The notes beneath the pieces are model-generated. The model saw nothing but the letters and a program-made list of their open reading frames with translations, was not told the origin of the DNA and ran no database searches. 31,755 bases of DNA. Origin: a virus. Position numbers and translations under genes: made by a program. The stretch covers positions 1 through 31,755 of the IMG/VR virus record IMGVR_UViG_3300032006_000047. One strand, 5' to 3'. Shown here piece by piece: positions 1,556 through 31,433 of this stretch. Each line of letters opens with the position of its first letter. Positions within the stretch are counted from its first letter, which is position 1.

Positions 1556-2614
1556 ATGGTTCTAGCATATAAAGGAGCTAATCGTGCAACTGGTGTAACA
1601 ACTGATAGAATAGGCACTGAATCATATTCTGCAAAATCATGGGTAGAATTGGGAAGAACAACATTAAGTAGTGCTGGTGATTCAATTAATGTAGCAAGTT
1701 TATCTACATCAGATTATCCATACATGATGGTATTAGTACATGGAATAAATTCAGGTCAAATTCAAAATAATATGCGTTTTAACAATGATAGTGGTAATAA
1801 CTACGCAAATAATTATTCTAATGACGGTGGTAACACTAATTTTACATCACAACCATATGTTGTAAATTCAGATACATATACAAGTGATATTTTTCAAACC
1901 GATTTTATAATGAATAATTCTGATCAAGAAAAATTAGGTACTGGTCATGTTATAGCACAAAACGCAACAGGACAAGGAACAGCTCCTAGAAGAACCGAAT
2001 ATGCTTCAAAGTGGGCAAACACATCAGATTCTATCACATCAGTTAGTCTAATCAACACAGGTTCAGGAGATTATGCAAGTGGTTCAGAAGTAGTAGTATT
2101 AGGAGCAAAGTCTAGTGGAACCGACACATCTAACGGTAGTTTTTGGCAAGAGTTAGCAGATGTTGAATTAAGTGCTACTGCTAATGAAATAAATTCAGGT
2201 ACATTTACAGCTAAAAAATATCTCATGGTTCAATTACATGGTGTTGCAGATGGTAGCATTAGTGGTTCTGATTTACAATTTAACGGAGATGACGGTGCTA
2301 ATTATGCAAGAAGATATTCAGCAAACGGTGACTCAGATGGAACTGGAACAAGTGAATCAACTCTCGGTGGTATTGGTACAGCTAGTGGTGATTCGTTTGT
2401 TAATTGGTTTATAATAAACAAATCAGATAAAGAAAAACTTGTAATTGGCGAAGGTCTTGCAAATACAACTGGAGCTGGTAATGCTCCAGATCGTAGAGAA
2501 CTTACAGGCAAATGGGCAAATACCTCTGCACAAATAACATCAATTAAAGTTAAAGAGAATGGTTCAGGTGGTTGGACTAGTGGTACTACATTAAAAGTAT
2601 GGGGTTCTGATTAA
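1556..2614 (+). CDS. Two-domain repeat adhesin, paralogue 1
   Basis: A 352-residue protein made of two copies of a domain of about 165 residues. Each copy starts with W-x-E-L (SWVELGRTTLSS; FWQELADVELSA), has an N-N/D-D-x-G-x-N-Y-A segment in the middle, an S/N-D-K/Q-E-K-L strand, an A-P-x-R-R segment, and ends K-W-A-N-T-S-x-x-I-T followed by a final strand ending VVLGAK or KVWGSD. The next two genes carry four more copies. Composition is Ser/Thr/Asn/Gly-rich and predicted all-beta, with no membrane segment. Start ATG 1556 is preceded by AAAGGAG at 1537-1543. Similar N-D-S-G-x-N-Y repeats are familiar to me from marine phage structural proteins; a role in receptor binding or capsid decoration is inferred. 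Confidence 0.75.
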   Translation: MVLAYKGANRATGVTTDRIGTESYSAKSWVELGRTTLSSAGDSINVASLSTSDYPYMMVLVHGINSGQIQNNMRFNNDSGNNYANNYSNDGGNTNFTSQPYVVNSDTYTSDIFQTDFIMNNSDQEKLGTGHVIAQNATGQGTAPRRTEYASKWANTSDSITSVSLINTGSGDYASGSEVVVLGAKSSGTDTSNGSFWQELADVELSATANEINSGTFTAKKYLMVQLHGVADGSISGSDLQFNGDDGANYARRYSANGDSDGTGTSESTLGGIGTASGDSFVNWFIINKSDKEKLVIGEGLANTTGAGNAPDRRELTGKWANTSAQITSIKVKENGSGGWTSGTTLKVWGSD

Positions 2615-2615
2615 G

Positions 2616-3668
2616 ATGGTTTGGGAAAGATTAGGAAGTGCAAGTGTTGGTGGATCAGTAGCAAATAACTCATGGAAAGAATTAGGTAGGCAAACACTAA
2701 GTTCTAGTGGAGATGTTATGACGACAGGTACAATAACTGCCAAAGATAATATGATGATATTATATTATGGTGTGGCAAGTGGAGAGATGATAAATAAATT
2801 AACTTTTAATGATGATACAGGTAATAATTATGCTTATAGATTATCAGATGGTGGTGCAACTGATTCAACTACAACAAGTAATGCTTTCTTAGAATTTGCA
2901 ACATCATCAACAAGTAATGAATTTTCAGTAGCAAATGTTGTTAATATCGCAAATCAAGAAAAATTAGTCCAATTAAATCATGTTGGTCAAAATACAGCAG
3001 GAGCAGGAACAGTTCCACGAAGGCGCGAATTAACAGGTAAATGGGCAAATACGTCAAACGCTATAACAAAAGTCACAGCAACAAACTCACAATCAGGTTC
3101 TTTTGGTAGTGGTAGTGAATTAATCGTACTAGGATATGATAATGATGAAGCTGATACAGGTTCTAATTTTTGGCAAGAGTTAGCTAGTGTCACTAGAACA
3201 GATAGTGGTTCAACATTAGAGTCAGGTAACTTTGCTGCAAAAAAATATCTTATGGTTGAAGCTTGCACAATCCCTGCAAATAATGGATTTAAAGGTAGGC
3301 TTGAGTTTGGTCATTCAAATGGCACAATGGACACAGGTTCTAATTATACAGATAGGTATGAACAAGATGGTGGATCTGATAGCACTAATGCTAGTCACCA
3401 ATACATATATGCTTACACAAACCATGATGATAATATTCAACATCTAAAAATGTTTATAGTTAATAAATCAGATAAGGAAAAATTAGTATTATGGTGGGCT
3501 AGTAGTGGTGGAAGTTCAACTGGAGCTGGAAACGCACCACAGAGAAGAAACGGTGTAGCAAAGTGGACTAATACTTCAAACCAAATTACAAATATTAGAT
3601 TAAATAATCAAGTAGCTGGTGGCGATGCTGCTAGTGGTTCTTTCATAAAGGTGTACGGAGCAGATTAA
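2616..3668 (+). CDS. Two-domain repeat adhesin, paralogue 2
   Basis: A 350-residue paralogue of the preceding gene, separated by one base from its stop and without its own clear ribosome binding site, so translation probably continues by re-initiation. It contains domain copies three (SWKELGRQTLSSSGD to ELIVLGYDND) and four (FWQELASVTRTDSG to FIKVYGAD). The KWANTS/KWTNTS signature, the A-P/V-P-x-R-R segment and the E-K-L strand are all present. Copy four is the most divergent, with inserted loops in its middle third (FGHSNGTMDTGSNYTDRYE). An all-beta fold exposed on the virion is inferred. Confidence 0.75.
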   Translation: MVWERLGSASVGGSVANNSWKELGRQTLSSSGDVMTTGTITAKDNMMILYYGVASGEMINKLTFNDDTGNNYAYRLSDGGATDSTTTSNAFLEFATSSTSNEFSVANVVNIANQEKLVQLNHVGQNTAGAGTVPRRRELTGKWANTSNAITKVTATNSQSGSFGSGSELIVLGYDNDEADTGSNFWQELASVTRTDSGSTLESGNFAAKKYLMVEACTIPANNGFKGRLEFGHSNGTMDTGSNYTDRYEQDGGSDSTNASHQYIYAYTNHDDNIQHLKMFIVNKSDKEKLVLWWASSGGSSTGAGNAPQRRNGVAKWTNTSNQITNIRLNNQVAGGDAASGSFIKVYGAD

Positions 3669-3669
3669 A

Positions 3670-4722
3670 ATGGCTTGGGAAAGATTAGCTCATGTTGAAT
3701 TAAGTAGTTCAGGCGATACATTAGATTCAGGTACTTTTACAGCAAAAAAAAGTTTGAGAGTTATTGTATATATAATTCCTTCAGGAAACACAAGAACAAC
3801 ATTTAGATTTAATTCAGATTCAGGTTCAAACTATGCACATAGAAACTCTTTCAATGGTGGTTCAGATTCAACTAAAACAAGTAGAAGTTCAATAGAAGCA
3901 GGTGATCAAGATAACGACCATAACGCATATCATGTATTAGAAATTACAAATATAGCAGATAAAGAAAAAATTATCATAAATCATAATTTAAAATCAGGTG
4001 GTAGTGGAGCTAGTAATGCTCCAAGTAGAAAAGAAGATGTAGCAAAATGGGCTAATACTTCAAATCAAATAACTTCAATTCAAGCAATTAATGATCAAGG
4101 GGGTTCTTATGGTGTAGGATCATACATAACCGTACTAGGAGCAAAAGAACCAGCTACGGCAGATTCAATAACAGTATCAAGTTTTACAGCAAAGAAAAAT
4201 TTGAAAGCACAATTATTTGCAAGTGGTACAGGTGGAACAATAAATTGTAATTTTACATTCAACAACGATACAGGTTCTAACTATGCAATAAGAGAATCTG
4301 TAAATGGTGGTAGTGATTCAACAAACGTGAGTCAAGCCAATACAGATAATTTAACAGGTACAGTCACAGGTAGTATTTTTGCAGATGTTAACATAACAAA
4401 TGAATCAAGTAAAGAAAAATTATTCATATCAGAAGGATTGGAAAGTACAAGTGGTGCAGGTACAGCACCTGACAGAAAAGAGATGGTTGGTAAGTGGGCG
4501 AATACATCAGCACAAATTACAACAATAAAAGCAAATAATGGTGGAACAGGTTCATACTCTGAAGGAAGTGAACTTATAGTTTGGGGAAGTGATGGCTCAG
4601 CTGATATTACTCTTAGCGGTGCTCTAACTAACATTGTAGGTGGATTTATATTTGAAGAAACAAATACAGGCAAACACTATATTTGGAACGCAACTACGAG
4701 TACGTGGACAGAGATTGCATAA
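3670..4722 (+). CDS. Two-domain repeat adhesin, paralogue 3, with C-terminal tip module
   Basis: A 350-residue paralogue, again one base after the previous stop. Copy five is AWERLAHVELSSSGD to YITVLGAK. Copy six lacks the leading W-E-L strand and starts at SITVSSFTAKKNL, so it looks shortened at its N-terminus. After copy six comes a unique module of about 40 residues (ITLSGALTNIVGGFIFEE..., ending YIWNATTSTWTEIA) that resembles a segment in the gene ending at 1510. This tail could be a trimerisation or attachment tip. The N-terminal MAWERL resembles MVWERL of the paralogue before it, which supports the chosen starts. Function is inferred as for the two genes upstream. Confidence 0.75.
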   Translation: MAWERLAHVELSSSGDTLDSGTFTAKKSLRVIVYIIPSGNTRTTFRFNSDSGSNYAHRNSFNGGSDSTKTSRSSIEAGDQDNDHNAYHVLEITNIADKEKIIINHNLKSGGSGASNAPSRKEDVAKWANTSNQITSIQAINDQGGSYGVGSYITVLGAKEPATADSITVSSFTAKKNLKAQLFASGTGGTINCNFTFNNDTGSNYAIRESVNGGSDSTNVSQANTDNLTGTVTGSIFADVNITNESSKEKLFISEGLESTSGAGTAPDRKEMVGKWANTSAQITTIKANNGGTGSYSEGSELIVWGSDGSADITLSGALTNIVGGFIFEETNTGKHYIWNATTSTWTEIA

Positions 4723-5142: not shown

Positions 5143-5984
5143 TGGGTAGCAATCCTCCTCAAGGTGGTGGCGGAAGTGGAACCGTTATCAATGCTTTATC
5201 TGATGTAGAAGATGTAACAATTAGTGGTAATAGTTCTGGTGAAATTTTAAAGTGGAATGGTTCAGCTTGGATTAATCAAACTTTAGCTGAAACTGGTATT
5301 CAAACTACATTATCAAATGCTGCAATTAAAACTGCTTATGAAGCAAATGCAGATAGTAATGAATTTTCAGATGCAGAACAATCAAAATTGGCAGCAATTG
5401 AAGCAAGTGCAACAGCTGATCAAACTAATGCAGAAATAGTAGCTGCTGTAGAAGCAGGGGCAGATTCAAACACATTTACAGATGCAGATCATAGTAAACT
5501 AAATGCTATAGAGGCATCAGCCACAGCTGATCAAACAGCAAGTGAAATTAAAACAGCATATGAATCAAACTCAGATACTAATGAATTTTCAGATGCTGAA
5601 CAAACTAAATTAGCTGGTATAGCTGCTAATGCAAATAATTATACACATACAACTAATGCTAATTTAACAGGCGAAGTAACCTCATCAGGTAATGCTGCAA
5701 CAATAACAGATGATATAGTTGATGAAGCAAACCTTAAAGTAGATAATAGTCCAACAAATGATTATGTATTAACAGCTAAATCAAGTGCAGCTGGTGGTTT
5801 AACATGGAAAGTTGGCGGTGGAGGTAATCATACAGTCCAAGATTGGGACTTACAAGGTTCAACTCCAGCAGACCCAGGAACTGATACTGGTAGAATGTAT
5901 ATGAAAGACATTGATAGTAACAATGAAGGTCTCTTTATGAAAATAAAGAAAAATGGTACAGTAAGTGAAGTGCAAGTACTTTGA
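5142..5984 (+). CDS. Tail fibre protein with phage fibre repeats
   Basis: A 280-residue protein. Residues about 55-165 contain three copies of a unit of about 40 residues, built from x-I-K-T-A-Y-E-x-N-x-D-S/T-N-E-F-S-D-A-E-Q-x-K-L-A-x-I-E-A-x-A. The D-A-E-x-x-K-L-x-x-I-E motif is a hallmark of phage tail-fibre shafts, which trimerise. A Gly-rich start (GSNPPQGGGGSGT) is followed by a domain with KWNGSAW, and the C-terminal part (NHTVQDWDLQ... to VSEVQVL) is predicted beta. It starts at ATG 5142 within TAATG and ends in TTGA, overlapping the protease gene. A role as a host-contact fibre is well supported by the repeats; the receptor is unknown. Confidence 0.85.
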   Translation: MGSNPPQGGGGSGTVINALSDVEDVTISGNSSGEILKWNGSAWINQTLAETGIQTTLSNAAIKTAYEANADSNEFSDAEQSKLAAIEASATADQTNAEIVAAVEAGADSNTFTDADHSKLNAIEASATADQTASEIKTAYESNSDTNEFSDAEQTKLAGIAANANNYTHTTNANLTGEVTSSGNAATITDDIVDEANLKVDNSPTNDYVLTAKSSAAGGLTWKVGGGGNHTVQDWDLQGSTPADPGTDTGRMYMKDIDSNNEGLFMKIKKNGTVSEVQVL

Positions 5985-6664
5985 GTGATTTTAGAAGCTG
6001 CGTATATAAATACGACAGCAATGGTGTAGATTTAGTAGCTGAGGAAATTAACCTTGGTGGTGGAAATATTGAAGAATGGCCTCATAAATGGGATGACCCT
6101 GTTCTTTATTGGGATTTAGTTTCTGATTCACCAGATATTGAAGGTGTTGATTTAGAAGAGAAATCTGTTTCTCGTGCATTGTTACGTTGGCAAGTTGTAA
6201 TAAGTGATTTAAAATTTAGAAAGTGGAGAAAGAATAAACCAGCTCCAAAAATTAGAATAGAATTTCGTACTGGTGAGAATGATGATTTATTTAGAAAAAG
6301 TAAAGGAACTTTAGCTTATGCATATTTCCCAGGCCAAGGAGCTGTGTCTGGTAAAGTAGTATTTAATGATGACAATTTATGGTCAACAACTGGTAAAGGT
6401 GTACCACACATCAACCCAGATGGTTCTAGAGTTGTATTGAAAGCATATCTTTTAGAACACGTATTGATACATGAATTTGGTCATATGTTAGGACTAAGAC
6501 ATGACAAAGCAGATAGAAAAAGTGTAATGTATCCTTTCTATAGTGGTATATTAGATTTATCAGGTACAGATATCTTAAGAATACAAAAGAAATACGGAGT
6601 GAGAAGCATATGGAAAAAGTTGCTCAGCAAATTACAAGGATACTTCAACAGGAAGATTCAGTGA
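5981..6664 (+). CDS. Matrixin-like zinc metalloprotease (M10-type)
   Basis: A 227-residue protein starting at TTG 5981, overlapping the fibre stop (TTGA). Residues 164-174 read HEFGHMLGLRH, a complete H-E-x-x-H-x-x-G-x-x-H zinc site, with the Met-turn at M183 (SVMYPFY). Residues 111-134 (LAYAYFPG...GKVVFNDDNLW) match the strand region that precedes the helix in matrixins, and LSGTDILRIQKKYG at 193-206 matches the domain's closing helix. There is no signal peptide, pro-peptide or cysteine switch. Residues 1-35 are unique and the C-terminus is basic. Its place between the fibre and terminase genes suggests a virion-associated enzyme that cuts host surface protein, such as an S-layer, or a maturation protease. 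The fold is confident; the substrate is inferred. Confidence 0.9.
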   Translation: MSDFRSCVYKYDSNGVDLVAEEINLGGGNIEEWPHKWDDPVLYWDLVSDSPDIEGVDLEEKSVSRALLRWQVVISDLKFRKWRKNKPAPKIRIEFRTGENDDLFRKSKGTLAYAYFPGQGAVSGKVVFNDDNLWSTTGKGVPHINPDGSRVVLKAYLLEHVLIHEFGHMLGLRHDKADRKSVMYPFYSGILDLSGTDILRIQKKYGVRSIWKKLLSKLQGYFNRKIQ

Positions 6665-7322: not shown

Positions 7323-8848
7323 AGTCCGGAATAATTTCTACTTGTGATGCTGCTGATTGGTCAGATTTACCTCAACATAAAAAGATGAGTGTATTACTTA
7401 AAGCATCTGAAGACCCAGTTTATTTTTGGACACATCCTGCACTTGGTAATACCAAACCATGGGCAGCACAAACTAAAATGTTAAAAGATTTTTATTCTAA
7501 AAATAAAGATGGTAAAAGAAATTATTCAGAACTAATATTTGTATCAGGAATGAGAGGTGGTAAAACTACCTTAGCTGCTATGATTAGTTTGTATGAAGTT
7601 TTTAAATTATTAATTCTAGATGACCCAGCTAAACATTATAATCTTGGTCCGGGTAGTGAAATTCAATGTATTAATGTAGCTCCTTCAGAGCCTCAAGCAT
7701 TAGATACTGTATTTAAGAGAAGTAAAGAACTTGTAGCACATAGTCCTTTCTTTATGGCTAGAGAATATGAACTAGTTTATAACGCAATTAAATTCCCAGA
7801 TAAAAATATTACAATTAAAGCTTTAGGTTCTAACTCCGGTTCTGGTGTAGGAAGAACAGTTAAGTGTTTCATTGCAGACGAGGTTAGTAGTTTCTTAGAT
7901 AACCAAAATAAAAGATCTGCCCAAGAAGTATATTCTAGATTATCAAAATCAACTGCAACTTTTAAACCATGGAATGAAAATATTAGAGTAGCTATCTCTT
8001 CCCCTCTCTATGACGGTGATTTTATCACAAGTATGCATAAAAGGGCAAAAGAAGAAGAATGGGATTGGGCTATGACAATTTGGGAACCTACTTGGAATCT
8101 TAATCCTAATTTAACTAAAGATGTCTTAGAGGAAGAGAGAAAGAAAGACCCAATTTCTTTTGACAGAGATTTCGGTGCAACTCCTGGTGTTGAAGTTGAA
8201 AACTTCTTTTCTAGTGAACTAATAAAACGTATAAAAATGTCACAAGAAAGAAATCATAATTTATTAGAAGACTTGGAACATCTTGAAGCTAAAAACGATG
8301 CTGTATATTATATTGTAGGAACAGACCCTGCAATTAAAAATGATTCGTTTGGTTTAGCTTTGGGCCATGTAACAACTAGTGGTGATATAATTATTGATGG
8401 TTCATTATCATTTTCAGCTGATAGGGGAGAAGAAATTAAGAGTGAAGATATTAAACAAATACTTGTTCCTTTATTTGAACAATTACCAGTACAGTATTAT
8501 GTATTTGATGCATACTTACATGGTGAATTAAAAGACTTGGCAGAGACTTATGGTATTACTACTTTCCAGCATTATCTCAATATTGAAGATTGGATTAAAA
8601 CTCGAGATGCTTTAGATAAAGGAACTGCACAATTACCATTAGATGAACAATTAACTAAAGAACTACAATATCTACAACTGATTAAAGCAAAGCAAGTAGA
8701 CCACCCTAGAAAGTTTCCTGACGGATCTCAAGGGGGAAAAGACGTTGCTGATGCTTGCTGTCAGATTATATCGCTGGTTAAGAGGACAGAGGATCTCCAA
8801 TCAAACAAATACTCTAAAGTCCCTAGTTTTATCGTGCAAACATTTTAG
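7319..8848 (+). CDS. terL: Terminase large subunit (packaging ATPase and nuclease)
   Basis: A 509-residue protein that powers DNA packaging and cuts concatemers. The Walker A motif is SGMRGGKTT at residues 76-84, and Walker B with the catalytic Glu is FIADEV at 184-189. The RNase H-like nuclease begins with VGTDPAIKND (D336), continues with VFDAYLHGE (D397) and ends near GGKDVADAC (D475/D478), the usual acidic triad spacing. Length is normal for TerL. It starts at ATG 7319, overlapping the upstream stop by ATGA, and stops at TAG 8846-8848, where AGGTGAA doubles as the ribosome binding site for the portal gene. The last 150 bases look less AT-rich than the rest of the gene. Confidence 0.95.
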   Translation: MKSGIISTCDAADWSDLPQHKKMSVLLKASEDPVYFWTHPALGNTKPWAAQTKMLKDFYSKNKDGKRNYSELIFVSGMRGGKTTLAAMISLYEVFKLLILDDPAKHYNLGPGSEIQCINVAPSEPQALDTVFKRSKELVAHSPFFMAREYELVYNAIKFPDKNITIKALGSNSGSGVGRTVKCFIADEVSSFLDNQNKRSAQEVYSRLSKSTATFKPWNENIRVAISSPLYDGDFITSMHKRAKEEEWDWAMTIWEPTWNLNPNLTKDVLEEERKKDPISFDRDFGATPGVEVENFFSSELIKRIKMSQERNHNLLEDLEHLEAKNDAVYYIVGTDPAIKNDSFGLALGHVTTSGDIIIDGSLSFSADRGEEIKSEDIKQILVPLFEQLPVQYYVFDAYLHGELKDLAETYGITTFQHYLNIEDWIKTRDALDKGTAQLPLDEQLTKELQYLQLIKAKQVDHPRKFPDGSQGGKDVADACCQIISLVKRTEDLQSNKYSKVPSFIVQTF

Positions 8849-8857
8849 GTGAAATAG

Positions 8858-10363
8858 TTGGGAATTTTCGATATTTTTAAATCTAAATCTGCTTCCAACC
8901 CTGTACCTCAAACTACACAGCCATCAGATCCTTTGGTGATGGAACCTTTTCAAGTTGAAACAGGTAGATTAGTAGATTCAAGAACACAAAGAGCATCTAA
9001 TAGATATACTGAAGCAGACGCTCTTGTAAACATGGATGAGAGATTATGGTCTGTTATTGAATTAGCAGCCGTTATGGTTAGAAAGTCATATAATGGAATA
9101 AGTTTAAAACCAGAGGGTAACGAACCTATACCAACAAATACTTCTAACGCTGAAGAGAATGCAATCTTAGAAGCAAAGAAATTTGCAGATCAAATTGATA
9201 TTCCAAGTTTACTTTACAATTACACAAAAGATTTGTGGAAATATGGCGATGCTGTAGATAAAATTACATTCTATGGTGGTAATGGTATTTCTAAAATAAC
9301 ACCTTTACCTATGAATCTAGTTACAGCAATTGATAATAGAAAACAATTCCAACAGCAATTAGGTTTAGGTGGTGAAGTTATTCAAGATCCAAAATTCTAT
9401 TGCGTAGATGAATTGAATGCTAATTTAAGAGTTAAAGATCAAGTTATTCCTGCAAATAGAATTATGCACATCTCATTCGATAATCGTAGACAATGGGTAG
9501 TTGATAATATTGGTAGATGGACATTTAATGTTTGGTCACATTCTCCAATTGAAACCTTAAAAGTTCTTATTGAATGGAAACATAACTTAATTAGAAATGA
9601 TCTACTTTGGAGAAATAGATTATTACCAAGAGAGCATCATAAATTAGATTTATCTGTATATGATCCAAGTAAATATACCGGAACATATTCTACCAAAGTT
9701 GCAAATGCTAAATCAGATGCAACAACTGCAATTAAAGATTATAATGACAAGATTAAGAGAAGAGAAGCTGACCAAGGTTTCACTACTGGTACAAATGTTG
9801 ATATTGATATCATTGAACCAAAAACAACTAATTACACTTCACCAAATCAAATCATAGATCAAATCAATAGCTTGATCTCAACTCCAACTGGCACTCCAGG
9901 TGCGTTAGTTGGTGGTGAGAGCAAAGGATTTACATCATTACTTCATTCATCATCTTTCACTGCTATGAGAGCAGATATATATGCAATGAGAATTACAAAT
10001 GCACTTGAAGGACTAGTCAAGAAACACGTTGCACTAGTTAGACCTGGTTTGAAACAAGATGTGATAGATAGATTATTTATAAGAAATAAATTAATTTTAG
10101 ATAGAGACAGAACAGAATTGGCAAAGATAATTGGTGTACTTGTAAATACAAATGTATTTACTCCATCAGAGATAAGAGCAATATGGGGATTAGATCCTTT
10201 GACTGAAAAACAAAGTGAAGAGATTGAAGCTGTATTAAATAAACCATCTCATACTGATTCTGTAACAGAAGATTTACTTAGAGAGAATCCTGAAAGTCCA
10301 ACTGGTGATATGGAAACTGGCGGTCAACGTGGTAGAAATATTAATCAGAGAGGAGATTTATAA
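8858..10363 (+). CDS. Portal protein
   Basis: A 501-residue protein starting at TTG 8858, five bases after an AGGTGAA site that overlaps the terminase stop. The start M-G-I-F-D-I-F-K-S-K is a familiar portal N-terminus. The sequence has the portal pattern of an alpha/beta core (YGDAVDKITFYGG...), a clip/stem region (about residues 235-300, with a basic helix DYNDKIKRREADQG) and a C-terminal helical crown (ELAKIIGVLVNTNVFTPSEIRAIWGLDPLTEKQ). The order TerL-portal-protease-capsid supports the call. The portal forms the dodecameric DNA gate at one capsid vertex. It ends at TAA 10361-10363, sharing one base with the next start (TAATG). Confidence 0.92.
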   Translation: MGIFDIFKSKSASNPVPQTTQPSDPLVMEPFQVETGRLVDSRTQRASNRYTEADALVNMDERLWSVIELAAVMVRKSYNGISLKPEGNEPIPTNTSNAEENAILEAKKFADQIDIPSLLYNYTKDLWKYGDAVDKITFYGGNGISKITPLPMNLVTAIDNRKQFQQQLGLGGEVIQDPKFYCVDELNANLRVKDQVIPANRIMHISFDNRRQWVVDNIGRWTFNVWSHSPIETLKVLIEWKHNLIRNDLLWRNRLLPREHHKLDLSVYDPSKYTGTYSTKVANAKSDATTAIKDYNDKIKRREADQGFTTGTNVDIDIIEPKTTNYTSPNQIIDQINSLISTPTGTPGALVGGESKGFTSLLHSSSFTAMRADIYAMRITNALEGLVKKHVALVRPGLKQDVIDRLFIRNKLILDRDRTELAKIIGVLVNTNVFTPSEIRAIWGLDPLTEKQSEEIEAVLNKPSHTDSVTEDLLRENPESPTGDMETGGQRGRNINQRGDL

Positions 10364-10536
10364 TGGAAGAAATAGAAAGTAAACAAGCAATAGAAAAGAT
10401 AGAATTAATTATGGAACAATTACAAGAAATTAAACAACATCTTGAAGGTGCTGCTCCTAAAGTAGAAGAAGAACCTGAAGAATATGATGAACTACCAGAT
10501 GATGTGAGGGCTTTAATAAATGGCGCTACTTCCTGA
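10363..10536 (+). CDS. Small acidic coiled-coil protein
   Basis: A 57-residue reading frame, M-E-E-I-E-S-K-Q-A-I... to ...I-N-G-A-T-S, starting within TAATG at the portal stop. GAGGAGA just upstream (about 10349-10355) gives a ribosome binding site. The first 27 residues form an amphipathic, highly charged helix (IEKIELIMEQLQEIKQ), followed by an acidic Glu-rich tail. It overlaps the protease gene by 17 bases. Its place between portal and protease suggests a scaffold-like or portal-accessory peptide. No family is recognised. Confidence 0.65.
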   Translation: MEEIESKQAIEKIELIMEQLQEIKQHLEGAAPKVEEEPEEYDELPDDVRALINGATS

Positions 10537-11539
10537 AGATAATAGTAGTCATTCCTACAGTATTCATACTGTATGGAGAGGTAGAACACCTAAACTATTT
10601 CTTAATTTAAAATTCGGATCTAATGTACATACTTTTAAATTTTCACTACCACACGAAGAAGAAAGATCAATTAGAACATATAAATTTGCACAACGTAAAA
10701 CTGATGAATTAAGTTACTTGTCTGATAATGTAAATGTATCTAGATTGTTTGGACAATTTTCTGAGATTAGAGCACCTTCCTGGTTAAACTTGGAAGGAGT
10801 TGATAATAAAACAAAAGAAGTATATGTAAAGAATACTATGGGAGAATTTACTATTGGTACACAAACAGATGACTTTACAGAGTTATTCTTTCATAAAGGT
10901 AAATTATCAGGTAGATGGGTGTTAAGAAATATTCCTAATGTATTTGCAAAGGAATTTCTTAATAAGAAAAAAGATGTATATCTGCTATGGAAACCTACAG
11001 AACAAACTCCTCATGCAGAACAAAAATCTATTAATTGTGGTATATGTCCAACTAAATCATTACAAAGCCAGCCTATGAAGAAAGGTAAATTAATACCAAA
11101 AAAGGCTAAATTTCAGATGCAAATCAATGTAGATGAAGAGAATCATACATTTGAAGGCATTGCATCAGCAGAAGGAACTTGGGTAGATATGTTTGGAAAC
11201 AAGTTCATTTACACAGCAGATTTTGTCAAAACGTTGTACAATCGTATGACACAGACAACTTTAAAGGGAAAATTAACGGTTGATAAGGAACATGACGAAG
11301 AAGACAGCGGATTAATAACTAGTGTCCAGCTGGTCCAAGAACCTATAAACCATATCATCGTTAAGGGAACATATAGCGGTACTTTAGACGATGTTCGAGG
11401 TTTGTCCCCCGAGCTAACTTTACGTTCTGCCTGGAATGAGGAATTCGCTGGGTGGGTACCGGTAGATGTCACACCCGATAGGGTATCATTGGTAACAAAC
11501 CCAGCATGTAAAATATGCTGGATTCAGGAAATTAGGTGA
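10520..11539 (+). CDS. Prohead maturation protease (XkdF/S78-like) with extra N-terminal domain
   Basis: A 339-residue protein. Residues about 190-339 resemble capsid maturation serine proteases of the S78/XkdF type: FEGIASAEGTWVDMFGNKF, then a His in KEHDEEDSG, a candidate Ser in GLSPELTLRSAW, and the characteristic closing segment DVTPDRVSLVTNPAC. The N-terminal 180 or so residues are not part of that domain. Around residues 113-156 they read GEFTIGTQTDD...LFFHKGKLSGRWVLRN...VYLLWKP, which recalls the end of LigD-type 3'-phosphoesterase domains (hGxxLkGrWvLvR...WLLiK). The histidine-rich active-site start of that family is not clearly kept. The gene sits between portal and capsid as expected. 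The protease call is solid; the N-terminal assignment is tentative. Confidence 0.8.
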   Translation: MALLPEDNSSHSYSIHTVWRGRTPKLFLNLKFGSNVHTFKFSLPHEEERSIRTYKFAQRKTDELSYLSDNVNVSRLFGQFSEIRAPSWLNLEGVDNKTKEVYVKNTMGEFTIGTQTDDFTELFFHKGKLSGRWVLRNIPNVFAKEFLNKKKDVYLLWKPTEQTPHAEQKSINCGICPTKSLQSQPMKKGKLIPKKAKFQMQINVDEENHTFEGIASAEGTWVDMFGNKFIYTADFVKTLYNRMTQTTLKGKLTVDKEHDEEDSGLITSVQLVQEPINHIIVKGTYSGTLDDVRGLSPELTLRSAWNEEFAGWVPVDVTPDRVSLVTNPACKICWIQEIR

Positions 11540-11546
11540 ACAAACA

Positions 11547-12194
11547 ATGTCAACCAAAACAACAGAGACTCCAGAAACTTCAAACAAATACTTAGAGTTT
11601 GAAAGTGATGATCTCAAGAATGAAGCTACACTAATTAAAGAAGCACTCGTTGCATCTAAAGTAGACTTACATTCCGCATTTGGTCTTGAAAAAACTGAGG
11701 TACAAGTAGATAACACCGAAGCAATCGCAGCTCTTCAAAAAATTCATATTGCCACTGGCAAGAAAATCGAAGAACTCGGTGGCGAAATCACTTCTAAACA
11801 ATCTTCTGTAGAACAAACACCAGCTGAGAAACAAGTTTATGCTGAACTAGAAAAACTTCATGCATCTTCATTGTCTGCAAAGACACAAGAGGTATTGAAA
11901 CTAGATCCAGACTTCCCAGTCGATGTTGTAAAAGAAGCAAACATTCCTACTGCTGATAAAGTTTCATTAATGTCTGCAATGACTACCGTTGCTGCAAGAC
12001 AATCTGAAGCAATTAACAGAGTAAAATCTGAAGTAGCATCACAGGAAAAAGAATCAGAAGAGACCGCTAAATTTAGCGCTCCAACTGAGGAAGCAACTAA
12101 AGAAGACGACCCAGAAGCAGGTGCAAAATACTTAGCAGCTCTACAAGCAAAGTTTGGTATAACTGAAACTGAAACTAAAGAGGTAGAAAACTAA
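11547..12194 (+). CDS. Putative capsid scaffold protein
   Basis: A 215-residue, strongly acidic, mostly helical protein starting at ATG 11547 after AGGTGAA at 11534-11540. Charged helices alternate with Glu/Lys/Ala-rich linkers (EEATKEDDPEAGAKYLAALQ), and there are no cysteines or membrane segments. This composition, and the position between the maturation protease and the capsid genes, is typical of internal scaffolds that are digested during head maturation. The C-terminal helix AKYLAALQAKFGITE may contact the capsid protein. Assignment rests on composition and synteny, not on a recognised family. Confidence 0.6.
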   Translation: MSTKTTETPETSNKYLEFESDDLKNEATLIKEALVASKVDLHSAFGLEKTEVQVDNTEAIAALQKIHIATGKKIEELGGEITSKQSSVEQTPAEKQVYAELEKLHASSLSAKTQEVLKLDPDFPVDVVKEANIPTADKVSLMSAMTTVAARQSEAINRVKSEVASQEKESEETAKFSAPTEEATKEDDPEAGAKYLAALQAKFGITETETKEVEN

Positions 12195-15471: not shown

Positions 15472-16446
15472 ATGACAAAAAGATACACACGATTTGAGAC
15501 TCAAGCAGCAATGACTACTAATGATAGTAGCTGGTCTGTAGGGTCTAATGTGCATGTGCTCGATGTCAGCGGCGAAGATATTTCTGTAGATAATGGATAT
15601 ATTTATCCAGCAACAGCTTCTAGTAGACACTATAAACGTGGTATTAAAGGTCCAATAAAAATTACAGGACCTATTGATACTCCTTTGTTCCCAAAAGGTG
15701 CAGCATCATTGCTATACTATACATTGGGCGCAAACACTACTACAGGAAGTTCAGCACCATATACTCACACAATAAAGAAAGGAGATTCAATTCCTCAATT
15801 TAGTTGTGAAGTAGGTAAAGATGTTAAAGCTCACAAATTTGTTGGTGGTATAGTTAATTCCGCAACTATAGATTATGCACCAGATGATACACTTAATGGA
15901 TCATTTGATACAGTCTTTAGAAAAGAATTAGCAACAAGTGCCCTAGCAAGTGTTACATTCCCAGACTTTGATAGTGCTGAAAGAGCATTTGCAGGTCACG
16001 AATGTACCTTTAAGATCGGTGCAGCAGAAGGAGGAAGTCCATCAACATCTACTATTTGTGAATCATTTTCATTATCCTTAGAAAATAATGTTGCAGACGA
16101 CGCATTTGCTTTAGGAGATAGATATCTTCCAGCAAATATAGTTGCACAATTTGCAGCATCAGGTACTATGGACTTGAGATATGATGCTAGCTCACACTAT
16201 GATGACTTTTTAGCAACAACTGAAAAAGAAATTCATATTGTAGCCGACAACGGTTTAAGCAGCGCAAATAATAGAAAGCTAACAATAAAACTTCCAAGAA
16301 TTGCATATGATTCTAACAGATTACCAACCGACAATGTAGAAAGATTTGTACAAGCAATTAGTTTCACTTGTGAAACCAATGCAGCTGGCGATCCAATAAT
16401 TGTTGAAGTAATCAACGCCGAGACAGAAGCACAATTCACAGCTTAG
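15472..16446 (+). CDS. Major tail (tube) protein
   Basis: A 324-residue, predominantly beta protein starting at ATG 15472 with AAGGTGA at 15459-15465. It contains long strands and loops: KGPIKITGPIDTPLFPKGAASLLYYTLG, CEVGKDVKAHKFVGGIVNSATIDYAPDD, ESFSLSLENNV and EIHIVADNG. The motifs 'KFVGGIVNSATI' and 'SFSLSLENN' are the pattern seen in siphovirus major tail proteins, which stack as hexameric rings around the tape measure. The gene stands immediately before the chaperone pair and the tape measure. No sheath gene is present, so a non-contractile tail is inferred. Confidence 0.82.
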   Translation: MTKRYTRFETQAAMTTNDSSWSVGSNVHVLDVSGEDISVDNGYIYPATASSRHYKRGIKGPIKITGPIDTPLFPKGAASLLYYTLGANTTTGSSAPYTHTIKKGDSIPQFSCEVGKDVKAHKFVGGIVNSATIDYAPDDTLNGSFDTVFRKELATSALASVTFPDFDSAERAFAGHECTFKIGAAEGGSPSTSTICESFSLSLENNVADDAFALGDRYLPANIVAQFAASGTMDLRYDASSHYDDFLATTEKEIHIVADNGLSSANNRKLTIKLPRIAYDSNRLPTDNVERFVQAISFTCETNAAGDPIIVEVINAETEAQFTA

Positions 16447-16455
16447 GAGAAAAAC

Positions 16456-16905
16456 ATGGTCAATCCAAAGATTCAACGTCTACGAGAGAAAACACAACAC
16501 ACTGTGATCGTAAAAGATGAAAATCTAGGTGAGATCGAATGGGTAATTCGATCGATACCTGCATATGATTTGTTACAACATTATGATTTATTTTCTTCCA
16601 TGCCTCAAGACATCAACCTTGATGTAGATAAGGATGGACAAATGAATGATAAGCAAGCTAAAGTACTTAAAGAAAAATTACTTCCAATGATGGAATTAAT
16701 TGTTCCGGCATGTGCTATAGACCCTCCTGTTACCGTTGATCTAAAGGATCCTCGATTAGCAGAAGGTGAAGTCTTACATTTAAGAGATATTTCATTTCAA
16801 GCAGTAACAGATTTATTTGCAAAGATTTTAGACGTTTCTGGTCTGTCTAAGGAGGCAGACGAGAAAAGAAAAAAATCGGCAGGAGCCAGTTCGCCAAAAC
16901 AATAG
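16456..16905 (+). CDS. Tail assembly chaperone, short (G-like) product
   Basis: A 149-residue protein starting at ATG 16456 with AGGAGA at 16445-16450. It has an N-terminal beta segment (TVIVKDENLGEIEWVIRSIP), helices (QAKVLKEKLLPMMELIVPACAID) and a C-terminal helix (HLRDISFQAVTDLFAKILDVSG) before a basic tail. Position between major tail protein and tape measure, and size, are those of gpG-type chaperones that bind the tape measure and keep it soluble. The tail includes the seven-A run 16869-16875 that allows a -1 shift into a conserved downstream frame; the zero-frame stop is TAG 16903-16905. Confidence 0.82.
   Translation: MVNPKIQRLREKTQHTVIVKDENLGEIEWVIRSIPAYDLLQHYDLFSSMPQDINLDVDKDGQMNDKQAKVLKEKLLPMMELIVPACAIDPPVTVDLKDPRLAEGEVLHLRDISFQAVTDLFAKILDVSGLSKEADEKRKKSAGASSPKQ
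16869..16875 (+). promoter_or_regulatory. Slippery heptamer for -1 ribosomal frameshift
   Basis: The zero-frame codons are AGA AAA AAA TCG, so the site reads A_AAA_AAA, the canonical slippery form. Slipping by one base moves ribosomes to codons ATC GGC AGG from 16875. AGGAG at 16882-16886 and a small GGC-AGGA-GCC hairpin at 16878-16887 lie directly downstream and might modulate the shift. Confidence 0.75.
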
Positions 16906-17096
16906 GTTCGTTATGTCATGCAGTTCCTTGTACACTACCCCATCTTATGTTGGGATACGCTATAGATGACCCCGAAGGCATATTTCTTAGCGCAGAAATA
17001 CTTAATGCTTCATCTCCACACGGAGGAAGCTCAAGTAGTACAAAGACTGGACAACAACAACGACGTGCGAGGTTGGCTCGTAAAAGCAGGTATTAA
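16875..17096 (+). CDS. -1 frame extension making the long (GT-like) tail assembly chaperone
   Basis: Read in the -1 frame from 16875, the sequence is open for 73 codons to TAA 17094-17096. Joined to residues 1-140 of the upstream gene it gives a fusion of 213 residues. The extension has IDDPEGIFLSAEILNASS, which is helix-forming, and ends with a basic Arg/Lys-rich tail (QQQRRARLARKSRY). No start codon of its own with a binding site is apparent, so it is likely made only by frameshifting. In tailed phages the G and GT products act together on the tape measure at a fixed ratio. The extension ends just before the terminator and tape measure gene. Confidence 0.75.
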   Translation: MGRSQFAKTIGSLCHAVPCTLPHLMLGYAIDDPEGIFLSAEILNASSPHGGSSSSTKTGQQQRRARLARKSRY

Positions 17097-17125: not shown

Positions 17126-20100
17126 ATGACTCCTAAAGAAACAATTAACTTTATTTTCCAGTCCAATGTGGCTGGTATTAAAAAAGCCTCAGGTGCTGTT
17201 AAAAAACTTAACGCACGTATAAAGGCTACAAAGAAAGCAAGTAATACTAGCTTTAATGCCATGAATAAGGGCATGATAGAGTCTGGTACTATTGCAGAGA
17301 AATTAGGTAACAAATTTGGTTTCATTGCATTCCAGTGGACATTTATAGCTGGTACTGCAAGTAGAGCACTAGGTGAAATTAGAATGGCTGCTCAGGAAGT
17401 CTTCCGTGAAGGCGCTGAGGGAATGTCTAAAATTCAAAAAGCTTCACTAGAAGCATTTGAACTAGGTGATTCAATAGACGAAACAAATAGAAAGATGAAA
17501 ATCTTCTCTCAGTATGCTCAAGAGATGGGTTCAGGGGCAACAATATTTAGCTCTGGAGAAGTAGCAGATACATTAAGAGAAGTAGTTAAAGCTACTAATG
17601 ATATTAACGCAGCAATTCCAATTACAAACTCACTTCTCAAATTAATGACAATTGAGGAAGTGGATGCAGCTAAAGGTGCTAAAGGTTTCCTTGCTGTAAT
17701 GAATAACTTTAAATTAACAGGTGAAGATGTAAATAGAGTAACTAATACATTAGTTGCTGTAAACAAACAATCTAGACTTTCTCTAGATGAAGTAATCCAT
17801 TCATATGAGTTTGCAGGTCAGCAGGCTAGATTAATGGGATTAGATATAGAAGAAGCAGGTACCTTGATTGGTATGATTGGTGACCAGTTACCAGCGGGAA
17901 CTGTAGGTAGAACCTTCTCACAGATGCTCGTTAACTTTAGAAAAGAAACTGTAGCATTAAATCCAGTATTACAAAAGATGGGTGTTAACTTATATGACAA
18001 CACAGGTAACATGAGAGAATTTGATGAGATCATGAGAGATATGTCAAAGATGATGAAATCAGCAGGAGAGAAAAGTGATTACTTTAGAGATTCAATATTA
18101 AGAAGTATGAAGTTAGATACTCGTGCAGAGAGAGTATTCTTAGCTTTAATTAATAACTTTGAAGAGTATGAAGATAGATTAGAAAAAGTAAGACGTGGTG
18201 GAGAGTATGTAGACTTTCTATATGAACAATTAAAGAATACTCCTGAAGCTGCAATGAAAAGATTACAGCATACGTTTGGACAATTAAAGATTCAATTAGT
18301 AGCAGGATTTGCTCCAGCCTTATTACAAATATTAGAAGTATTAATGGAATTTGTTAGACGAGAAGAAATTCAAAAAGCATTCCATGCAATAGGAAAAGCT
18401 ATAGGTCAAAATGTAATTCCTTTGGTAGAAGGAGCAGTATGGGCATTTAGAGGCTTAGTTGCCTTGTATAAGAAGGTAGGATTAGGTACGGATGGATTAG
18501 CAAAAATAGTCTTAGGACTATCAGTTGCACTAGGAACATTAGTTGTAGTTGGTACTTTAATTACATTATTTGCTATGTTCGCTAGCTTGGCAGAAAAGGC
18601 AGCTGCTAAGATGGCTGTATTGGGAATTACAACTAGATTTACAAATATGACAATGTCATCATTCTTAATTGGTATGATGAGAGTTGGTGCTATTATGTTT
18701 GGACTTTGGTTCTTAATATCTGGTATTAATAGATTATGGACAACATTATCTGATGGCTTCCAAGAAGGTGAAGAAGGAGCTGTATTAATGGGAGTAGGAT
18801 TAACTGCTTTAGGTGCAGCAATGGTAGCAGTACCGTTATTGCCTTATGTAACTAAAATGGGTGCATTTATTGCTGCTAACGTAGCTGGTAGTGCTTCGAT
18901 GATAAAATTCGGAATGGTTGTAAGAGGTGTAGGAGTTGCAATGTTGGCCAGTGGTGGAATAATTGGTATATTAGCTTTAGCAGCAGCAGCTATGGTAGCT
19001 TTAGGATATGCAATAGCTCAAGTCTGGAAAGACTTTGCAAATGTTAAACCAGGAGATGATTGGGCTACTTTATGGCAAAAGACATTCCATGCTATAGCTG
19101 AAGCATCTGCTACTGATTGGCAAACTGCATTCGAAGCTAAATGGAAGGAAGGCATGGACTTTGGTAAATTAATTATGGATGAATTAAATGAAAAGATGGC
19201 ATCAATTAAAGCCTTATTTGCATTAATGGCAGATTGGGGTGAAGCTGCATTTAGAGGTGAATGGGATCTTGTATTCGATATAGGAAAACAAATACATGAT
19301 AGTGTAGTAGCTTCACAATTACAATTCCAAATGTCTGGTAAATTAATGGCCGCACAAATAGCAGAAGGAATAGCAAACTTTGATTTGATTGGAGCAATAT
19401 GGGATAGTGTAATGGGTATAGAAACTGATTACATGAAACAATATGAAGAAGGTCAACAAATGATACAAGGATATAATAAAGAAGTACATCCATGGATAAC
19501 AAAACTTGATGAAACTATGGAAGCAACAGATGCATCATTAGATGATTATAAGAACCAAGTAGATATTATTACTGGAACTGTTGAAGCTTCTGACTTTACT
19601 GGTAAGACTGGTGAACTATTAATTGCAGCTGAAGAAGTTGTTTCAACTACAGCAGAATTAAATAGCAACACGAGTGCTGTGATGCAAGCTGCTTACGCAG
19701 AAATTGAAGAATCAGCTACCGGAATGGGATTAGTTCCTGGTGTTGTAGAGGATTTAACTAGAGGTGCAGAATCAGTAGTAGAATCTACAACAGAGTTAGC
19801 AGATGCTGTAACACCAACAACAGAAGAATTGAAATTACAAGAAGAAGTACTTAAAGAAACTACTAAAGAATTAAAAGCAGAAGTTGCTGCATTGGATAAG
19901 AAAGTCAAGGCACAAATATTAGAAACTGCAATTACCGAAACCATAATTGCACATAAAGAAGACCTTGATAAAATAATGAAGTTACAAGAAAAGGTAGTAG
20001 TTTCAATTATTGGTAAAGATGTACAATTAATAAGAGATAAAGAACGTCTTCATGCATTGTATGAATGGTATCTATTTGCATTAGAAACACGTTTAGTTCC

Positions 20101-20500
20101 AGCAACAATAGATTCAGTTGAACAAATAATGCTCTTTAATGATAGAGTTATTGAAGCAGATAATGCTTTTGCTAGATTAGCTTATGCAGCAGATAAAACT
20201 GTTGAGAGATTAGCTAGTGTAAAAATAAGTAAAGACGGAAGCTTTTCAATGGCTGGCTTTGGTCCATTACCAAAAGGAATGAATACACACATGCCACAAG
20301 CAACCCCTATTGCAGGTAACGCTCAAGACATAGCTAATCAATTAAGAGCACTAGCCCCATCGGCTCCCACAGTGAATAATAATATTGAAATGACTTTAGA
20401 TATTGAAAGTATTAGGTCTGAAGAAGATATAGAAAGAATGGCTGGATTAGTTGCAGATAAAATTGCAGAAGAATTAGATACAAAGAGTTTGACTGAATAA
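17126..20500 (+). CDS. Tail tape measure protein
   Basis: A 1124-residue protein, the largest in the window. The N-terminal half (about 40-330) resembles the phage-minor-tail/TP901 core domain with GATIFSSGEVADTLREVVKA, LDEVIHSYEFAGQQARLMGLDIEEAGTLIGMIGD and GRTFSQML. Four hydrophobic segments lie at about 458-491, 510-537, 550-575 and 601-634; they may insert in the host membrane during DNA entry. The C-terminal third is acidic and coiled-coil (LKLQEEVLKETTKELKAEVAALDKK). The usual 1.5 angstrom per residue would set a tail of about 170 nm. It ends at TAA overlapping the next ATG (TAATG). No peptidase or lytic domain is recognised inside it. Confidence 0.93.
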   Translation: MTPKETINFIFQSNVAGIKKASGAVKKLNARIKATKKASNTSFNAMNKGMIESGTIAEKLGNKFGFIAFQWTFIAGTASRALGEIRMAAQEVFREGAEGMSKIQKASLEAFELGDSIDETNRKMKIFSQYAQEMGSGATIFSSGEVADTLREVVKATNDINAAIPITNSLLKLMTIEEVDAAKGAKGFLAVMNNFKLTGEDVNRVTNTLVAVNKQSRLSLDEVIHSYEFAGQQARLMGLDIEEAGTLIGMIGDQLPAGTVGRTFSQMLVNFRKETVALNPVLQKMGVNLYDNTGNMREFDEIMRDMSKMMKSAGEKSDYFRDSILRSMKLDTRAERVFLALINNFEEYEDRLEKVRRGGEYVDFLYEQLKNTPEAAMKRLQHTFGQLKIQLVAGFAPALLQILEVLMEFVRREEIQKAFHAIGKAIGQNVIPLVEGAVWAFRGLVALYKKVGLGTDGLAKIVLGLSVALGTLVVVGTLITLFAMFASLAEKAAAKMAVLGITTRFTNMTMSSFLIGMMRVGAIMFGLWFLISGINRLWTTLSDGFQEGEEGAVLMGVGLTALGAAMVAVPLLPYVTKMGAFIAANVAGSASMIKFGMVVRGVGVAMLASGGIIGILALAAAAMVALGYAIAQVWKDFANVKPGDDWATLWQKTFHAIAEASATDWQTAFEAKWKEGMDFGKLIMDELNEKMASIKALFALMADWGEAAFRGEWDLVFDIGKQIHDSVVASQLQFQMSGKLMAAQIAEGIANFDLIGAIWDSVMGIETDYMKQYEEGQQMIQGYNKEVHPWITKLDETMEATDASLDDYKNQVDIITGTVEASDFTGKTGELLIAAEEVVSTTAELNSNTSAVMQAAYAEIEESATGMGLVPGVVEDLTRGAESVVESTTELADAVTPTTEELKLQEEVLKETTKELKAEVAALDKKVKAQILETAITETIIAHKEDLDKIMKLQEKVVVSIIGKDVQLIRDKERLHALYEWYLFALETRLVPATIDSVEQIMLFNDRVIEADNAFARLAYAADKTVERLASVKISKDGSFSMAGFGPLPKGMNTHMPQATPIAGNAQDIANQLRALAPSAPTVNNNIEMTLDIESIRSEEDIERMAGLVADKIAEELDTKSLTE

Positions 20501-24475: not shown

Positions 24476-25760
24476 AAAAAATAATATTCCTCAAAACCTT
24501 ATATTATTTACAGGTTTAAGTTCTGTACCTTCTAAATTTATTATAGAAAGTAACAACGATAAAATGCCTAGAAATACTGCTAGTGGTGTTAATCCTGGTA
24601 GTGAAATTACTACAGCTGCACATCAGCATGCTACTTCGGGTACACACGAACACGATGGTAATGTAAGCCATGCTCATCATGCACAAACAGATACTTATAC
24701 AGGTTCAGCTGGACATGGTTCATATAATGGTTCAGCAGGAATACATTATCACGAGTATGATACTAATGCAACTACTGTTAATTTAGATACAGCAGCTGGT
24801 GGAGACCATCAACATGATGCTACAGCTACAGCAGATCCTCCTTATTATACTTATTTAGCTATAAAGAAAACTTCTGTTTATAATTTAAGATCATCACATC
24901 AGATACCACATAAAGCTTGTCTGATGTGGAAAAGTTCATCTCTTCATACAGGATATGCTGCTGATACAACTGGTAATGATAAATTTTTTAAATTTACAAA
25001 TACTCCTGGTCAGACAGGAGGAGAATCAACTCACACACACAGTGAAGTAGCTGGACATAATCATACTTTTACTTTAGCAAGTCATACTCATGCATTGCCT
25101 TCAGCTACAGGACCAGGCAGTAATAACACAGCTAAGATTGGTTCTGGTAGTGCAACTGTTACTGTTGGTGGTGGACATACACACGGATTATCAGGAACTA
25201 CTATTTCTAGTGATACTGCAACTGGTAGTACAGGAACTAGTGATGCACATTCAGAGATAGCAATAGCAAGAGATCCTGCTTGGTTTAAAGTTCGAGTTGC
25301 AAGAAGAGATATAGTCTCAATGAGAAAACCGGGAATACCTAAATCAGGTATTTGTATGTGGAAAAATACTCTAGCTAGTATCCCTACAGGCTTTGTATTA
25401 ACAGATGGTAATAATGGTACTACTAATTGGTTAAATAAATTTCCTAAAATTGGCAATAGTGCTTCTAGCACAGGCGGTAGTGATACACATCAACATGCCT
25501 CACAAAATCATACTCATACTTTAACTGCTCATCATACTCATACTATTTCTGGTAACACTGATTCAGGTGGCTCAGGAGGAAATCCTGGCGCAGCTGGAGC
25601 TACTGCAGGAACTAGATTAGGAGAACACGTACATGGTCCTGGTGATATAATGACTACAACATTTGATCCAGCTGTTACTAGTAGTACAGGACATCAACAC
25701 GCAGCTGCTACATCATTACCTAATTATATACAAGTTGCTTATATAGAGAGAACGAGTTAA
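24459..25760 (+). CDS. His-rich tail collar-type receptor-binding protein
   Basis: A 433-residue protein with three tail-collar-like units. The clearest is PKSGICMWKNTLASIPTGFVLTDGNNGTTNWLNKFPKIGN..., ending LPNYIQVAYIER; a second is HKACLMWKSSS...TGYAADTTGNDKFFKFTNTPG, and a first, degenerate unit is near the N-terminus and ends PPYYTYLAIKK. Each is followed by loops dense in H-x-H motifs, 14 in all (HQH, HEH, HAH, HYH, HTH, HNH, HVH). Similar repeated H-x-H motifs bind iron in the T4 gp37 fibre tip. It therefore probably forms a trimeric, metal-holding fibre tip. It starts at ATG 24459 and overlaps the upstream gene by 17 bases. Confidence 0.82.
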   Translation: MTRSIRKNNIPQNLILFTGLSSVPSKFIIESNNDKMPRNTASGVNPGSEITTAAHQHATSGTHEHDGNVSHAHHAQTDTYTGSAGHGSYNGSAGIHYHEYDTNATTVNLDTAAGGDHQHDATATADPPYYTYLAIKKTSVYNLRSSHQIPHKACLMWKSSSLHTGYAADTTGNDKFFKFTNTPGQTGGESTHTHSEVAGHNHTFTLASHTHALPSATGPGSNNTAKIGSGSATVTVGGGHTHGLSGTTISSDTATGSTGTSDAHSEIAIARDPAWFKVRVARRDIVSMRKPGIPKSGICMWKNTLASIPTGFVLTDGNNGTTNWLNKFPKIGNSASSTGGSDTHQHASQNHTHTLTAHHTHTISGNTDSGGSGGNPGAAGATAGTRLGEHVHGPGDIMTTTFDPAVTSSTGHQHAAATSLPNYIQVAYIERTS

Positions 25761-30643: not shown

Positions 30644-30756
30644 CTTATTATCACTTCTATTCCCATTACTGTAAAAGTAGTTATTAGCATTACTGGTACG
30701 ATTATTGCTGGGATAACTATCACATATAATTGTGGATACTTTTTAAACAGATTCAT
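30640..30756 (-). CDS. Small membrane peptide (38 residues)
   Basis: A leftward frame from ATG 30756 to TGA at 30642-30640: M-N-L-F-K-K-Y-P-Q... then a hydrophobic segment (LYVIVIPAIIVPVMLITTFT) to I-I-R. Start forms ATGA with the nuclease stop and end forms ATGA with the ATPase start. The overlaps on both sides make it very likely to be translated. Single-pass membrane peptide of unknown function. Confidence 0.6.
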   Translation of the reverse strand: MNLFKKYPQLYVIVIPAIIVPVMLITTFTVMGIEVIIR

Positions 30757-31433
30757 TTTGATATCACATTATCCAACATGAATCTAATACGTTGTAATCT
30801 ACTTGGACCAATTCCTGGAACTTTAAGCAATTCATTATCATCTGCATTCACTATACATCTTACTGTAGAAAATCTATCTAAAAGATTTTGTGCGACATCA
30901 GTCGGAACATTTAATAATAATTTAACCACTTCTCTTTGTGGATTTTCAGTTCGTTTTATTCTTCTATCTTTAATCTGATCCAGCTTCCCTTCTGCAATCT
31001 TTTTCAAGAGTTTCGTAGCCACCATCAAACCATCATTATGTGGATCAGAATAACCATCCTGTATCCAAATTACACTTCTTAATCCAAATCTAACTATTGC
31101 ACTCGCAATTGCACCTTGAACGTGTTCTTCGGTTATCTTGCTCTTCTTGTAATACTTTTCTACTTCTTTGTAACTACCTGTAATAAGTAAAATTGGTATA
31201 GGTTCTGAAGCTAATCGTTTTAATTGATCTTCTAATCTACCCGATAGAAGACTTTGCATAAAATCAGAAATTGCTTTTCTTTCTATTGTAACTTTACCAT
31301 CATCAGCATAAGCTGCATAGTCACCACATGATAAAGCTTTTACTGTAAATTCTATTCCGTTATGTTTAAGTAAAGTTCTTTGTTTAACTTTTTCTCTGGA
31401 ATCAACAACAATCTCTATGTCTTTTGAGGCCAT
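30753..31433 (-). CDS. ERCC4/XPF-family nuclease with helix-hairpin-helix
   Basis: A 226-residue protein with all key motifs of the XPF/Mus81 nuclease: D-S-R-E (11-14), S-C-G-D-Y (35-39), V-T-I-E-R-K (48-53), then D-F-M-Q-S-L-L-S-G-R-L-E-D-Q-L (57-71), giving the G-D-x(n)-E-R-K-x(3)-D active site. Residues about 170-226 are a tandem helix-hairpin-helix (NVPTDVAQNLLDRF... LLKVPGIGPSRLQRI) that binds branched DNA. It lacks a helicase domain, so it is like short archaeal XPF. It is likely to cut flaps or branched replication intermediates. It overlaps QueC upstream by 19 bases and the tiny membrane gene downstream by ATGA. Confidence 0.9.
   Translation of the reverse strand: MASKDIEIVVDSREKVKQRTLLKHNGIEFTVKALSCGDYAAYADDGKVTIERKAISDFMQSLLSGRLEDQLKRLASEPIPILLITGSYKEVEKYYKKSKITEEHVQGAIASAIVRFGLRSVIWIQDGYSDPHNDGLMVATKLLKKIAEGKLDQIKDRRIKRTENPQREVVKLLLNVPTDVAQNLLDRFSTVRCIVNADDNELLKVPGIGPSRLQRIRFMLDNVISK

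Follow-up and report, generated by a model that had tools for sequence, protein, structure and literature searches.

A conserved A_AAA_AAA heptamer and a -1 frame extension point to a G/GT-type tail assembly chaperone pair in a probable archaeal virus

Introduction

Programmed -1 frameshifting that yields the tail chaperones G and GT is established in dsDNA phages, including lambda (Xu, Hendrix and Duda 2004, as reported in PMC7911831 and PMC5009743), and is predicted for the haloarchaeal viruses HVTV-1, HCTV-1, HCTV-2, HCTV-5 and Hardycor1 (PMC5009743; PMC8211752; PMC7911831). As reviewed in PMC8211752, frameshifting in archaea has been studied directly in a single Sulfolobus gene and is predicted in viruses, so that the locus described here offers a compact test site for ribosome slipping in archaea.

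The window, by which we mean the whole stretch of viral DNA analysed (31,755 nucleotides), carries a short gene between those for the tail tube and tape measure proteins. Its position resembles that of lambda G/G-T, as does a predicted -1 slip near its 3' end, which would add a C-terminal extension ending just before the tape measure gene. The lambda heptamer is G_GGA_AAG, whereas the one here is A_AAA_AAA, and no sequence similarity between the two loci was detected. HCTV-2 (NC_021319), a hypersaline virus with an archaeal host, also has its tail tube, joined tail assembly chaperone (TAC; gp40/gp41) and tape measure genes in this order, and its A-rich heptamer, A_AAA_AAC, lies in the same register as ours, but its T part is 164 aa long, compared with 73 here. 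In HVTV-1 (TAC genes 129/130, KC117377) and Hardycor1, a joined TAC with a predicted -1 slip likewise precedes the tape measure (PMC7911831), and the HVTV-1 order of tube, joined TAC and tape measure, as annotated, matches that of the window. The slip sites of these two viruses are, however, of the G_GGA_AAx type, unlike A_AAA_AAA, and the chaperone sequences of HVTV-1, with which the comparison was made, are not recognisably related to those of the window. In another halovirus, HRTV-27, the same architecture is reached by a different route, its chaperone (L032, 13063-13903) being annotated with a putative -2 frameshift. No homology to the chaperones of HCTV-2, HVTV-1 or HRTV-27 was found with hhalign. 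G/GT frameshifting itself is already known; what is new, judging from sequence, is its occurrence in a further virus group, with chaperones lacking detectable homology to those of these three viruses.

The E. coli dnaX cassette, which combines an internal SD, the heptamer A_AAA_AAG and a 3' hairpin, provides a further comparison. Here too, an SD-like motif lies upstream of an A7-type heptamer, but the spacing is 13 nt, compared with the 8-11 nt reported as stimulatory for -1 frameshifting (PMC6321510), and in place of a 3' hairpin there is one on the 5' side, overlapping the SD-like motif. In E. coli, A_AAA_AAA shifts less strongly than A_AAA_AAG (PMC5009743).

Results

Reading frames at the chaperone locus

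The genes and reading frames at the locus are as follows.

15472-16446, plus strand: tail tube protein, presumed partner of T (PF18906 Phage_tube_2, 1.8e-19; phrog_290, 7e-29)
16456-16905, plus strand: G, short tail assembly chaperone, a zero-frame ORF of 149 aa from ATG at 16456 to TAG at 16903-16905
16869-16875, plus strand: slippery heptamer A_AAA_AAA, read directly and in the same register in relatives
16875-17096, plus strand: T extension in the -1 frame, 73 codons plus TAA at 17094-17096
16456-17096, plus strand: predicted GT fusion, 140 + 73 = 213 aa, based on both frames and their conservation
17126-20500, plus strand: tape measure protein, presumed client of G and GT (PF10145 PhageMin_Tail, 2e-18; PHROG tape measure families, best 9e-19)

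The gene order is thus tail tube, G/GT and tape measure, with G a short gene between the other two. The start of G is preceded by the SD AGGAG on direct reading, several PHROG tape measure families matched the gene downstream, and 29 nt separate the T stop from the tape measure ATG (17126). Direct reading bore out the position and register of the heptamer, as well as the coordinates and lengths, that an earlier note on this DNA had claimed, and the zero-frame codons it gave, AGA (16867), AAA (16870), AAA (16873) and TCG (16876), place the heptamer in the X_XXY_YYZ register. That note also had G end at these codons, which is incorrect, since nine further sense codons follow the heptamer in the zero frame. 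The 73-codon frame it described, reached by slipping one base and running to the TAA just before the tape measure gene, was recovered on translation. This frame accounts for what had looked like a gap of ~200 bases ahead of the tape measure. In this virus group, the 73-residue domain that it encodes would escape gene callers confined to a single frame.

We consider it very probable that the locus encodes a lambda G/GT-type chaperone pair belonging to a virus with a long tail and probably an archaeal host, and that GT is made by a ribosomal -1 slip at A_AAA_AAA. Most ribosomes would complete G (149 aa), and in a minority of passes the two tRNA-Lys in the P and A sites would re-pair one base back on the heptamer, after which 73 further codons would be read to give GT (213 aa). 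The slip rate would set the G:GT ratio. By analogy with lambda, G would form a coat on the tape measure protein and GT would, through its T part, bring in tail tube subunits.

Conservation of the heptamer

The heptamer alone is weak evidence, because two other genes of the window carry A_AAA_AAA in frame (at 3239 and 3744, both presumed to be chance occurrences), and we rejected it as stand-alone evidence. In total, the window's genes contain 3 in-frame copies of A_AAA_AAA, the general X_XXY_YYZ pattern occurs 29 times in ~10,000 codons, and AAA makes up 77% of the lysine codons.

We compared the window with L002 (3300030329_003381), L005 (3300020197_000044) and L013 (3300009149_000001), whose fusions are 96%, 44% and 38% identical to that of the window, respectively; the window and L002 were counted as one lineage, giving three distinct lineages with L005 and L013. 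All four sequences carry A_AAA_AAA in an identical codon register, within an invariant 9-column DNA block, G-AAAAAAA-T (columns 413-421 of the four-sequence alignment), despite the 38-44% protein identity of L005 and L013. Each of the three lineages has an A run of exactly 7, and none has a longer one. In the L005 lineage, contigs from four datasets show an identical frame break (three further contigs in addition to 3300020197_000044), and the order of tube, chaperone and tape measure is also found in both L005 and L013. The A run and the downstream frame, on whose presence in relatives the earlier note had staked its reading, are therefore both kept in distant ones. With A_AAA_AAA kept to ~38% protein identity, the comparative case for -1 frameshifting among probable archaeal viruses now extends past the haloarchaeal examples. 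A possible additional lineage, L017 (MCP 57%), was set aside, since its contig stops short of the chaperone, and the final viral scan returned only L017 itself.

Coding conservation of the T extension

The -1 extension spans 74-80 codons in L002, L005 and L013, and when its 73 residues from the window were used alone as a tblastn query, L005 and L013 were matched at 2.8e-14 and 2e-12. Across the extension, the other two frames contain 2-7 stops per lineage, and a stop-free run of its length has a 2-5% chance of occurring in each lineage. Downstream of the G stop, pN/pS between the window and L002 was 0.33 in the -1 frame, compared with 1.39 and 2.10 in the remaining two, which indicates codon-level selection in the -1 frame only and answers the question of coding conservation raised earlier for this frame; G in its own frame gave a value of 0.06. 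Where G and T overlap, the single difference between the window and L002 (16889) changes Ser/Asn in the zero frame and is silent in T (CAG/CAA).

Conservation of T begins exactly at the slip, at the I of RKK-I (RKK-I..S in the alignment). The -1 frame itself opens 18-57 nt upstream of the heptamer in all four sequences, and none of them has an ATG, GTG or TTG between the opening stop and the slip, so that full-length T needs the start of G. In L013, T and the tape measure gene share bases, the stop of one and the ATG of the other running together as TGATG. From these comparisons, the frameshift site is in all likelihood real and functional.

Chaperone identity

The match of G to PHROG families labelled tail assembly chaperone was weak (phrog_344, E 0.0088; phrog_4336, E 0.025). 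Such families were matched weakly by three of the four members, at best with E=0.0076 (phrog_4336), and no Pfam match for the chaperone lay above the cut-off. The structural model of G is of low confidence (pLDDT 68.7). When it was searched with Foldseek against BFVD, mycobacteriophage TACs were among the top hits (probability 0.9-0.97, E ~0.01, TM ~0.4), and against the PDB the HK97 chaperone 2ob9 was matched weakly, at E=1.9. A tblastn search of known phages with the L005 fusion gave no match. Since the family and fold matches are weak, the identification as a chaperone rests mainly on position and architecture. The gene order, together with the weak PHROG and structural matches, supports assignment of the locus as a G/GT tail assembly chaperone, as the earlier note had proposed.

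Alternative explanations for the frame change

The same arrangement could arise if RNA polymerase added or dropped A's at the A7 run, so that some mRNAs would encode GT in one frame. The site consists of A's alone, and transcriptional slippage would also yield a mixture of G and GT and fits a conserved run. However, the bacterial cases known use runs of ~9 A or T (PMC5009743), while the run here is exactly 7 in three lineages, has the codon register of a tandem slip and has never been lengthened, and we regard this origin of GT as unlikely. A break in what was once a single gene, with a base lost from the A run by mutation or by sequencing error, is brought to mind by the error-prone nature of homopolymer runs, but the identical frame break at the same base in three diverged lineages, its presence in four datasets for L005, and the recurrence of the zero-frame stop after the slip make this extremely improbable.

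Alternatively, internal initiation might yield T as a small protein of its own, with no fusion. There is an ATG at 16947 in the T frame, and the SD-like AAGGAGG lies upstream of this frame. This ATG is, however, codon 25; conserved T residues precede it, and neither L005 nor L013 keeps it in that position. The SD-like motif is ~90 nt away from it, and conservation begins at the slip rather than at any such start. An independently initiated T is thus very unlikely, and a ribosomal -1 slip at the heptamer remains the reading we favour.

Sequences flanking the heptamer

Two elements lie immediately upstream of the heptamer in the window.

16849-16855, plus strand: SD-like AAGGAGG, 13 nt upstream of the heptamer, a possible frameshift stimulator
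16835-16866, plus strand: very stable RNA hairpin that ends 2 nt short of the heptamer and carries AAGGAGG in its loop and 3' arm, a possible modulator

From their distribution, SD motifs appear to serve translation starts in this virus, as GGAG, GAGG or AGGA was found upstream of 15 of the 32 starts, against a background of 9%. The AAGGAGG motif is also present in L002, has no equivalent in L005, and is replaced by GGGG in L013. The hairpin has an MFE of -17.2, compared with a mean of -5.0 for synonymous shuffles, none of which was equally stable (0/2000), and it ranks second among the distinct 42-nt hairpins of the window's plus strand. Other very stable hairpins on this strand are located at 25558-25600 (42-nt MFE -18.6) and, inside G, at 16519-16566 (-17.1). 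The 5' hairpin is strong in the window and L002, whereas L013 has another stem and L005 none, and it was rejected as a feature of the whole group; since it is not conserved across the relatives, we offer a role for it as a hypothesis only.

Downstream of the heptamer, no stimulatory structure was conserved among the four sequences, with z scores for the fold of 100 nt against shuffles of +1.8 (window, +1.77), +1.2, -1.7 and -0.2. A downstream hairpin or pseudoknot was accordingly rejected as the stimulator, with no signal in the window, L002 or L013 and a modest one in L005.

A hairpin adjoining the slip site reportedly reduces -1 frameshifting (PMC6321510), and it is plausible that the hairpin holding AAGGAGG is a control element. 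The hairpin and the pairing of AAGGAGG with 16S rRNA would be mutually exclusive, and a switch could therefore be imagined in which the hairpin folds again once the ribosome has passed and damps the slip, and the rRNA pairing promotes it, so that G:GT would be set without a downstream stimulator. We put this forward as a speculative and rather doubtful model.

Host and virus group

The description of the DNA in the earlier note as that of a likely archaeal virus gains indirect support from PolB and a Hef/XPF nuclease. Among 50,697 phage records, the PolB of a relative, L027, is closest to those of haloarchaeal tailed viruses, and archaeal polymerases lead its matches in the PDB. The ERCC4-HhH nucleases of the window and of both relatives (L025 and L026) match archaeal Hef/XPF models, and a Hef nuclease and VWA/AAA genes are shared by HVTV-1 and the window's group, with AAA and VWA genes found in L029. 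Judged by these similarities, an archaeal host is likely. The window's nuclease gene (30753-31433, minus strand) encodes a protein 46-51% identical to its counterparts in L026 and L025, and tblastn against known phages gave no match to it.

When known phages were searched by tblastn with the MCP or portal of the window, no match was obtained, and by this measure the virus group is absent from the phage records searched. A pattern-based and not exhaustive scan of genome contigs with MCP and ERCC4 profiles found no provirus or host genome.

Other genes of the window

The tape measure protein (17126-20500) is 64% identical to that of L002 (5677-8829), the corresponding values being 97% for the tube, 97% for G, 92% for T and 96% for the MCP; a recombinational exchange of the tape measure gene, or its unusually fast evolution, may account for this. 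Three adjoining genes at 1556-4722 share repeated related motifs (KWANTSxQIT and KEKL) and look like duplicated tail or receptor-binding proteins, and a matrixin-type metalloprotease (Peptidase_M10, E 5e-26) is encoded at 5981-6664, inside the structural gene block. QueC is located at the edge of the window (31415-31753, minus strand), and in L027 the region 8636-11691 groups QueE, FolE and QueC, a cluster suggesting that these viruses encode the synthesis of 7-deazaguanine and perhaps have modified DNA.
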